This document shows positions 37,588 to 53,865 of a stretch of DNA of 64,000 nt, in pieces (position 1 is the stretch's first letter; each line of letters opens with the position of its first letter). A model generated the notes under the pieces. That model was not told the origin of the DNA and ran no database searches. It saw only the letters and a program-made list of their open reading frames with translations. This stretch comes from Neoconidiobolus thromboides FSU 785 (lineage: Eukaryota; Entomophthoromycota; Entomophthoromycetes; Entomophthorales; Neoconidiobolaceae), in the NCBI GenBank assembly GCA_025603075.1, contig MU626268.1:144796-208795 (forward strand), given 5' to 3'. A program made the translations under genes and the position numbers.

Positions 37588-38625
37588 ATGTTCACTTCAG
37601 ACTATTCACAACCTATCACAAGCAATTGGTCTTTAGAGGACATGGTAGCCCTAGGACAAAACTATGACACCGATAATTATGCACAATACAACAACAATTT
37701 ATTCATTAACCCCAGCCCACAATTACCCTTGTCAGATCACTCCAATCCTATTGTAACCTCAGCCCCTTATTCTTTTGACCCAGTTTCAACAGAACTTATG
37801 AATATGTCCCAACCAGACTATAACTCTAATCTTTCTGCTTTATTACCAAGCACCGCCTTTGACCATGGCACTCCTAATGCTATGACTGAGTCCATTGCTT
37901 TAGGTAGTGAATCTAGAGACTATTCTACTAGTCCTAGTGAGCTTCCAGAACCCATCAAATTGAAGCCAGGACGTAAACGTAAAGATGAAAAAGTTGATCG
38001 AGAAGCTTTAAAGCGTGATCGTATGATTCGTAACCGTTTAGCCGCCCAAAGATCTAGAGAGCGTAAACGTAAAGAAGTGATTTCAGTTGAAAAAGAGAAT
38101 TTACAGTTAAAGGATCGCAATAAGGAGTTAGAGACCAGAGTAAGTACGTTAGAAGCATCCAATCTTGCCTTAATGGAAAGGTTGGATGCCCTTTCGCGTC
38201 AGATGCAAGCTATGCAAGGCCAAATGCAAATGAACAATTTAGGCTCGGTACTTTTCAATCGTTTCGGCGAGACAGCAGCGCTCGTTGATAGGGGCTTTTT
38301 ACCCCGTTCCCAGCAGCGGAAGCGATTGAACCAGTATCTAGTACTTCATTATCAAATACTATTAGCCATGCAAACAATGCTTCGGACTTACTTCCTGGTT
38401 TGGTGGACAACCCGTTTATGGGTCATCTCTTCGATCTCCAATGGCCCTCCATTAACGGAGGATATTCTGTGCTTGATAACTAGTGAAGGCAATGAATTTA
38501 ATTTTCATACCGTTTCTAAATATCTAGCTAAGTTGGAACCTACTGAGATTGAAGTAGAATTTAAAGACTTTGACCTTGAAGCTAGGGCCAGCTTAAATTT
38601 TCCTCAAAAATGGCTCCCGCCATAA
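37588..38625 (+). CDS. HAC1: HAC1/XBP1-type bZIP transcription factor, regulator of the unfolded protein response
   Basis: In fungi and animals Hac1/XBP1 turns on ER-stress genes after Ire1 removes a short intron from its mRNA in the cytoplasm. The basic region is at residues 142-165 (RMIRNRLAAQRSRERKRK, with the N-x7-R signature) and a leucine zipper follows to about 205. Unspliced, the frame runs to 38625 (345 residues). If 38276-38313 is removed, codon 230 joins GCA and the frame shifts; the CDS 37588-38275 + 38314-38483 is 858 nt, 285 residues. The new tail contains LLPGLVDNPF and MGHLFDLQWPSING and ends at TAG 38481-38483, like an acidic/hydrophobic activation domain. The unspliced tail is instead strongly hydrophobic at about 250-283. 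I see no spliceosomal intron. Confidence 0.9.
   Translation: MFTSDYSQPITSNWSLEDMVALGQNYDTDNYAQYNNNLFINPSPQLPLSDHSNPIVTSAPYSFDPVSTELMNMSQPDYNSNLSALLPSTAFDHGTPNAMTESIALGSESRDYSTSPSELPEPIKLKPGRKRKDEKVDREALKRDRMIRNRLAAQRSRERKRKEVISVEKENLQLKDRNKELETRVSTLEASNLALMERLDALSRQMQAMQGQMQMNNLGSVLFNRFGETAALVDRGFLPRSQQRKRLNQYLVLHYQILLAMQTMLRTYFLVWWTTRLWVISSISNGPPLTEDILCLITSEGNEFNFHTVSKYLAKLEPTEIEVEFKDFDLEARASLNFPQKWLPP
38265..38324 (+). promoter_or_regulatory. Ire1-type non-conventional intron (38276-38313) with its two splice-site hairpins
   Basis: Both junctions read CAG^CAGC, matching the Ire1 rule of CNG^CAGN in a loop. At the 3' site the loop CAGCAGC (38311-38317) is closed by four pairs (38310-38307 with 38318-38321), one bulge and two more pairs. 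At the 5' site CAGCAGC (38273-38279) sits inside an A-G mismatch closed by a 7-pair stem (38265-38271 with 38281-38287, two being G-U). Between them GGGG (38291-38294) can pair with CCCC (38302-38305). The 38-nt length is not a multiple of three, so removal changes the frame, as in HAC1 and XBP1. Confidence 0.88.
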
Positions 38626-38880: not shown

Positions 38881-39468
38881 TTAAGACCAACCACAATAAT
38901 CAGTTAACTTTTGAATGAGAGTTTGAGGATCAAACACATTATTATAGTACAAGGTAGGTAATCTACTTGTATCTGACCTGAACTCATCAAACATTTTTCG
39001 ATTACATGAAGTGCAAATACTTTTTCCAGCTCTTATACCAATATTATTAATATTAACTTCCAACTGCGTTGATATCCTTCTAAAATCATTAAGACACAAA
39101 GTTTTTCCATCATCTCCTAAACCACATACAACGCTTGCTGCTTTAGTATCTGCCCACTTTGAATACGCTTCATAATTGTGCGTTAAAATAGAAGCTCCTT
39201 GACCAATTCCAAGTTTGCAATGTTGATTAATATAGCTTGATGCATTAATTGTGGCTTCAAGACAAGTACTACTACAGACTGTGGTTAAACTGGTTAGGTA
39301 GAGAGTAGACTCGCCGTAACAATAGTCTAGGATCGGGTATTGTTTTTGAACTTCATCTTTGAGGTTAGAACGATCACACTGACTGTTTTCTATACCTCTT
39401 AAATCGCTACCAAATTGAGAGCTTTCAAGGAAGGTGATGAAGATGAATAACAAATAGATAAATAACAT
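38881..39468 (-). CDS. Secreted cysteine-rich protein of unknown function
   Basis: Single frame of 195 residues. The start MLFIYLLFIFITFLESS is a typical signal peptide. The mature part has ten or so Cys (CDRS, DYCYG, VCSSTCLE, HCKL, VCGL, LCLND, ICTSCNR, YCGWS), which suggests several disulphides, and two N-glycosylation sequons (NAS and none certain elsewhere). No domain recognised and no catalytic motif seen. A decayed second copy of its 5' part and promoter lies at 43199-43740, so the family duplicates locally. A small secreted effector or cell-surface protein is possible but unproven. Confidence 0.7.
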   Translation of the reverse strand: MLFIYLLFIFITFLESSQFGSDLRGIENSQCDRSNLKDEVQKQYPILDYCYGESTLYLTSLTTVCSSTCLEATINASSYINQHCKLGIGQGASILTHNYEAYSKWADTKAASVVCGLGDDGKTLCLNDFRRISTQLEVNINNIGIRAGKSICTSCNRKMFDEFRSDTSRLPTLYYNNVFDPQTLIQKLTDYCGWS

Positions 39469-39846
39469 GCTGATACTTGGTTTTAATGACTAAAGTATAA
39501 AGTATAAGAACTAAGTTTGAAATAATTTAGTTAAATAATTTTCATTTATACACTTACAATTTAAGGTTCAGTTTACTTATAATTGGTATAGTTTATTTTA
39601 ACGACTAAATATGGGTTAGTTCAAACTTAGTTGTTAAACGTTGGGTTTAATAAACTACTACCAATGATATTCAAACTAGACTTAATGAATGTCATAATTC
39701 AATCTCATTATTATAAAATTAATAAGAGTATAGTTTTCGAACCAAAAAAATAAAACTATAAAACTGGATGTTAAAATTATTAAATATTTTAATTATATTT
39801 AATAAATAAATAAGTTTGTAACCTTTACAAACTCTTCCTAAACGTC

Positions 39847-53792: not shown

Positions 53793-53865
53793 GCTCCGTT
53801 AGCTCAGTTGGCAGAGCGTGGTGCTAATAACGCTAAGGTCATAGGTTCAAGCCCTATACGGAGCA
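53793..53865 (+). tRNA. tRNA-Ile (anticodon AAU)
   Basis: Full cloverleaf of 73 nt. Acceptor stem GCTCCGT pairs with ACGGAGC, followed by discriminator A. The D arm is GCTC...GAGC, the anticodon arm TGGTG-CTAATAA-CGCTA gives anticodon AAT, and the T arm is ATAGG-TTCAAGC-CCTAT. No intron. The stem has G-T and T-G pairs but no mismatch. The first anticodon base would be edited to inosine. Confidence 0.96.

Follow-up and report, generated by a model that had tools for sequence, protein, structure and literature searches.

A predicted 38-nt Ire1-type intron in a HAC1/XBP1-type bZIP gene of Neoconidiobolus thromboides

A bZIP gene of the fungus Neoconidiobolus thromboides FSU 785, located in a window of 64,000 nucleotides (the whole stretch of DNA that was analysed, to which all coordinates below refer), is in all likelihood a HAC1/XBP1-type gene with a 38-nt non-spliceosomal intron, so that cutting by Ire1 and joining by a Trl1-type ligase would yield an active factor of 285 aa. 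The segment 38276-38313 of the + strand is very probably a genuine HAC1 Ire1 intron. This reading, first put forward in the original prediction, is supported by the motif at the two splice sites, the twin hairpins that present it, the coding frames on either side, the way in which a relative's protein (P0001) runs over the junction, the HAC1-type basic region of the gene, and the occurrence of both Ire1 and a Trl1-type ligase in the genome.

The gene begins with an ATG at 37588 on the + strand, and its continuous frame encodes 345 aa, ending at 38625. Exon 1 (37588-38275, + strand), which covers codons 1-229 plus the opening base of codon 230, is defined by the open reading frame, by a Pfam bZIP_2 match of 37.3 bits that lies upstream of the splice sites, and by codon use that is coding-like (LLR +56.1/+48.8). 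The bZIP domain, whose basic region reads RNRLAAQRSRERKRK, occupies 38008-38160 (+ strand), as given by a Pfam bZIP_1 match to residues 141-191. The splice sites had been described as lying immediately after the leucine zipper, which proved incorrect: the cut falls after codon 229, 38 residues beyond the last one in the Pfam bZIP match. The kinship of the gene to HAC1 was followed through the genome, of which 23.1 Mb in 392 contigs were searched. Eleven bZIP_2 matches were found, and this gene is the only one of them with a basic region of the form RNRxAAQxSRERKR, a pattern derived from the proteins P0002, P0004, P0007 and P0009. A reverse search with P0004, a HAC1-named protein of Pochonia, returned this gene first in the genome at an E value of 8.9e-9, the next one following at 1.0e-3; judged by these sequence comparisons, it is the most HAC1-like bZIP gene of the genome. 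A profile built from two sequences, the spliced product and P0001, retrieved 11 proteins at E values up to 10, with P0001 among them and with weak matches to the hac1-named proteins P0004 (8.7e-4), P0007 (1.4e-2) and P0009 (2.4).

A search with the spliced protein found no identical protein, and the gene may therefore be missing from public annotation, although the database searched does contain a BiP of N. thromboides FSU 785. That record is 100% identical, from end to end, to the 665-aa BiP encoded in this genome. The neighbouring frame on the - strand (38881-39489) would encode 202 aa that include a hydrophobic stretch close to the N-terminus and roughly twelve cysteines, and it may specify a secreted protein. 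The sole Rfam match above gathering score in the 64-kb window is a tRNA-Ile (AAT) at 53793-53865.

The heptamer CAGCAGC occurs at 38273-38279 and again at 38311-38317, and cuts after the third base of each would fall after 38275 and after 38313, releasing the 38-nt piece that lies between them; the two identical CAG^CAGC sites (the caret marks the cut), 38 nt apart, are thus confirmed from the sequence. Both fit the published motif for Ire1 sites, CNG^CNGN or CNG^ANGN (Li 2018, PMC6037481), the first form of which is also found in Li 2021 (PMC8104961). The 5′ splice-site hairpin (38264-38288, + strand), drawn from the sequence and from constrained folding, has the loop core CAG^CAGC on a stem of 8 bp (38264-38271 with 38281-38288). 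Of the earlier description of this hairpin, the 7-nt core and the A-G mismatch stand, but the stem is 8 bp long and not 7, and the loop is strictly 9 nt, since the mismatch A38272.G38280 adjoins the core, and would be 7 nt only if the A.G pair closes. The 3′ splice-site hairpin (38307-38321, + strand), drawn in the same way, is exactly as foreseen, a 7-nt CAG^CAGC loop on a 4-bp stem (38307-38310 with 38318-38321). Set against the rule for S. cerevisiae Ire1, by which loops are exactly 7 nt, the 3′ loop has the required size, whereas the 5′ loop with its 9 nt has it only with a closed A.G pair.

Two further elements complete the predicted structure. Inside the intron, the proposed GGGG/CCCC hairpin (38291-38305, + strand; 38291-38294 with 38302-38305) was recovered by folding, and it is present in the minimum-energy fold as well as in the two-hairpin fold. 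Outside it, constrained folding gives an exon-exon stem, zipper-like, with its 5′ arm at 38247-38262 and its 3′ arm at 38322-38338 (both + strand), in which 38247-38252 pair with 38333-38338 and 38254-38262 with 38322-38330, 15 pairs in all. When both splice-site hairpins are forced, the model produces a four-way junction of the outer stem, the 5′ hairpin, the GGGG/CCCC hairpin and the 3′ hairpin. Folded as two separate strands, exons 1 and 2 pair at -29.5 kcal/mol.

The rarity of this arrangement was assessed by counting CNG[CA]NGN loops that are closed by a stem of at least 4 perfect bp, or of at least 6 bp with one mismatch, thresholds that were chosen after the site was seen. The window contains five such loops on the + strand and two on the - strand, and only one pair of them is spaced by 15-60 nt, which is the site described here. 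No stemmed-loop pair arose in 100 dinucleotide shuffles of the window, with one strand scanned in each, and none was present among 20 other loci of the genome (L004-L023), which amount to 387,678 strand-bases; shuffling of the gene itself produced a pair in 2 of 5000 cases. Bare CAGCAGC pairs with a gap of 12-42 nt gave at least 17 matches genome-wide, at no fewer than 15 distinct places (against at least 5 for the reversed control), and stems on both loops were seen at one of the 15 places found, namely this one.

Folding energies tell a similar story for the region as a whole and a different one for the two hairpins. For the 96-nt region the folding energy is -36.8 kcal/mol, compared with -23.7 for shuffles (z -4.32), and its stability was matched by none of 200 shuffles and by none of 1000 synonymous resamplings that kept the unspliced protein. 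The folding check that the original prediction had called for came out divided: the region is far more stable than its shuffles, but its lowest-energy fold is a structure other than the two-hairpin one. The two-hairpin fold reaches -32.7 kcal/mol against the minimum of -36.8, has an ensemble probability of 0.0013, and lies above the best fold by 4.5, 4.5, 4.1 and 3.6 kcal/mol under four dangle settings. Thermodynamics alone, as modelled here, would not predict the two hairpins; RNA that is bound by Ire1 need not follow the energy model. Rfam gave no match over the intron, and three matches below gathering score elsewhere in the gene.

Excision of 38276-38313 alters the C-terminal coding frame, a hallmark of the HAC1/XBP1 mRNAs that are spliced by Ire1. 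It gives a product of 285 aa instead of 345 aa, with the stop of the spliced frame ending at 38483, and the two products diverge from residue 232. Exon 2 (38314-38483, + strand, up to the stop) is coding-like only when read in the spliced frame. Codon scores against the noncoding model and two shifted-frame models are +9.6/+8.8/+9.0 in the spliced frame and -0.7/-14.5/-1.7 in the unspliced frame, the codon model having been built from 35 ORFs of at least 250 aa taken from the 64-kb window and the loci L004-L023.

A protein search with the spliced product had one match, P0001, which is 261 aa long and comes from a 1167-base JGI contig. With the unspliced product, its BLASTP alignment goes no further than GETAA, where the 5′ cut falls; with the spliced product, its alignment continues ungapped across the junction, with seven consecutive identities (GETAAEA) and another E two residues on. 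Since P0001 reads on over the junction, the sequences on both sides of it are joined in the relative, whether by splicing of the transcript or because the gene has no intron. P0001 alone does not separate these two states, and it would equally represent the continuous state if there were no intron at all and the 38 bp were an insertion, or an assembly error, that interrupts an ancestrally continuous gene. Direct repeats of 8 nt (CAGCAGCG; 38273-38280, 38311-38318) also speak for such an event. It is nevertheless very unlikely, because both Ire1-type hairpins, each with the correct loop sequence, arise from the piece together with its flanks, an arrangement that is very rare in shuffles, because the genome has Ire1 and a Trl1-type ligase, and because the piece sits downstream of the bZIP in the most HAC1-like gene of that genome. 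A conventional spliceosomal intron that would produce the same frame switch was also considered; P0001, which agrees with the predicted junction, speaks against it. Such an intron could draw on 48 nearby GT/GC-AG combinations that yield the same frame change without a stop, yet there is no GT[AG]NG donor in 38150-38340 (a scan of GT donors only, with a consensus that is not the genome's own) and GT-AG or GC-AG ends are found in none of the nine equivalent ways of placing the 38-nt gap, which makes this explanation exceedingly improbable.

The Ire1-type intron would depend on two enzymes, and both are encoded in the genome, the ligase being identified through its kinase-CPDase part. Trl1 kinase and CPDase domains lie together in one frame piece, and the assignment to the Trl1-type tRNA ligases rests on these two; the frame piece preceding it contains KENG, which we take to be a ligase motif. 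A single ORF encodes the 971-aa Ire1 (L004, G000:C28:77000-82000), which has both a kinase and an RNase domain; over its kinase-RNase part it can be aligned with its yeast and human counterparts, and the catalytic His (yeast 1061) is conserved. The residues at yeast positions 992 and 1059 are D and K, an S. pombe-like pattern. According to the rule of Li 2021 (PMC8104961), two interface residues of Ire1 govern loop tolerance; the D/K pattern is reported there in 175 of 230 Ire1s, the human one included, and is linked to loop-size promiscuity and to RIDD. The D/K pattern of this Ire1 and a 5′ loop of 9 nt would fit together. The pattern alone is no predictor of cutting, since S. pombe Ire1 requires UG^C and leaves an AG^C site uncut (Li 2018, PMC6037481), and the sites here are AG^C.

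The same S. pombe-like pattern, through its link to RIDD in Li 2021 (PMC8104961), lends something to the idea that Ire1 cuts the hairpins for decay, with no splicing, and that the 345-aa form, whose frame is open for 345 codons, is the sole protein. This is extremely unlikely, as the two matched sites and the switch into a coding-like exon 2 point to ligation, and so does the junction in P0001. Human Ire1, moreover, shares the D/K pattern, and metazoan Ire1 both splices and carries out RIDD (PMC8104961), and the AG^C sites are unlike the UG^C of S. pombe (PMC6037481).

The promoters of the pathway were also inspected. The UPRE-like words TGACGTG, CAGNGTG, ACGTGTC and CCACG are all absent from the 1000 nt that precede each of BiP, HAC1 and IRE1; one ACGT lies upstream of BiP, at -625, and CCAAT boxes are found upstream of all three genes. 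At a separate locus, L028 (G000:C221:14163-16004), an HSP70-family match scoring 446 bits is interrupted by four in-frame stops, and the locus is either intron-bearing or decayed.

The unspliced frame was examined as well. Its C-terminal tail, residues 230-345, is an open frame at 38275-38625 (+ strand), and beyond the spliced stop it runs for 47 codons including its own stop, with codon scores of +7.3/+13.0/+9.7. Noncoding stretches of 47 codons are open in 191 of 7054 cases, and 6.1% of 7468 open noncoding stretches match all three of these scores, the stretches in both counts being overlapping and non-independent. After recoding, the unspliced frame stays open across exon 2 in 837 of 20000 trials with the codons of the genome, in 1475 of 20000 with the gene's own, and in 3998 of 20000 with permuted ones. 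These figures are only suggestive of selection on the unspliced frame, and a translated unspliced isoform is possible. A bolder scheme, in which the unspliced message is itself productive and gives, in addition to the spliced activator of 285 aa, a regulator of 345 aa whose separate C-terminal part overprints exon 2 and continues past the spliced stop, a relaxed Ire1 of the D/K type performing both the splicing of the unusual 9-nt/7-nt loop pair and RIDD in Entomophthoromycota, is speculative and on balance doubtful.

Two features of the tails were considered and set aside. The hydrophobic tail of the unspliced product was tried as an XBP1u-like ER-targeting region, and rejected since the shifted frames of recoded exon 2 are equally hydrophobic: upon synonymous recoding, with stops dropped, the shifted frame equalled or exceeded it in hydrophobicity in 2847 of 3000 cases under the codon use of the genome and in 2013 of 3000 under the gene's own. 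A frame shift in this genome yields such stretches, and the one seen here is consequently not evidence. The tail LFDLQWPS of the spliced product was compared with the ascomycete CDLQC, a comparison that was dropped, as CDLQC lies mid-protein, before a long tail, in P0003, P0005 and P0007.

The cutting, the ligation, the zipper step, the role of ER stress as inducer and the functions of both products are inferred. Under ER stress, Ire1 would cut after the G in each CAG^CAGC loop, and the outer exon-exon stem would keep the exon ends together as the intron departs; once the RNA is cut, this stem could extend into the GGAA that is freed from the 3′ hairpin. The Trl1-type tRNA ligase would then join the exon ends, and by the resulting frame shift the bZIP of exon 1 would gain the other tail (residues 232-285), so that the 285-aa active factor replaces the 345-aa product. 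The idea of a zipper is taken from XBP1, for which Peschek reportedly described an exon-exon zipper in 2015. As drawn here it may be lineage-specific, since in P0001 full pairing is impossible for two of the stem's four codon pairs. The other steps are those of the established Ire1-HAC1 pathway.

If this is true, the Ire1-HAC1 switch would extend to Entomophthoromycota, a phylum of early-diverging insect-associated fungi, with a compact substrate (38 nt, three hairpins and a predicted zipper) whose imperfect 5′ loop sets a test for the published loop-tolerance rule. Among the literature matches listed there was no report of HAC1 in Entomophthoromycota, where an earlier listing of related species is possible, and no mention of a 38-nt or 38-bp HAC1 intron; a survey of HAC1-type introns is said to have been made by Hooks in 2011. 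The gene is very probably a new case of a known mechanism, in a phylum without a HAC1 report among those matches.

The intron of metazoan XBP1 is 26 nt long and causes the same frame step as the 38-nt intron. XBP1 also has twin 7-nt loops, the size counted here for the 3′ loop and, if the A.G pair closes, for the 5′ loop; it differs in being ligated by RtcB, for which no match was found in this genome assembly, which may be incomplete. The spliced product of XBP1 is the longer form, whereas here it is the shorter one. The original prediction held that the frame moves exactly as in HAC1/XBP1, and for 38 nt (2 mod 3) this is so with respect to the fungal introns of 20, 29 and 56 nt, but not to the 252-nt intron of S. 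cerevisiae or the 19-nt intron of C. albicans. It had also regarded 38 nt as a distinct size. Published lengths include 19-22, 20, 29 (Yarrowia), 56 (Cryptococcus), 252 and 626 nt and reach almost 850 nt (PMC6222058, PMC3154848, PMC6627864), so the size is not distinct, and it represents no new kind, since it falls within the "small (<50 nucleotides)" group of PMC6222058.

In S. cerevisiae HAC1, with its 252-nt intron, Ire1 and Trl1 act as is proposed here (PMC6627864); the length of that intron is a multiple of three, unlike the 38 nt of the present one. The yeast type of translational block by pairing of the intron with the 5′ UTR has no counterpart in the duplex energies obtained, which were -15.8 for the intron against a shuffle mean of -16.8, with 309 of 500 shuffles pairing equally well or better; over the 288 nt that precede the ATG, Watson-Crick matches to the intron reach no more than 6 nt. 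Cryptococcus HXL1, described as phylogenetically very divergent from ascomycete Hac1, has CAG at both intron borders, stem-loops and a frame step that are all as here, and an intron of 56 nt as against 38 (PMC3154848). The short introns of HAC1/hacA in Candida albicans (19 nt), Aspergillus (20 nt) and Yarrowia (29 nt) likewise interrupt a bZIP gene and have their splice sites in two hairpin loops, and they are handled by Ire1 and a Trl1-type ligase, as would be the case here. Compared with these, the predicted intron of N. thromboides belongs to another phylum, Entomophthoromycota, and its 38 nt leave room for an intron-internal hairpin.
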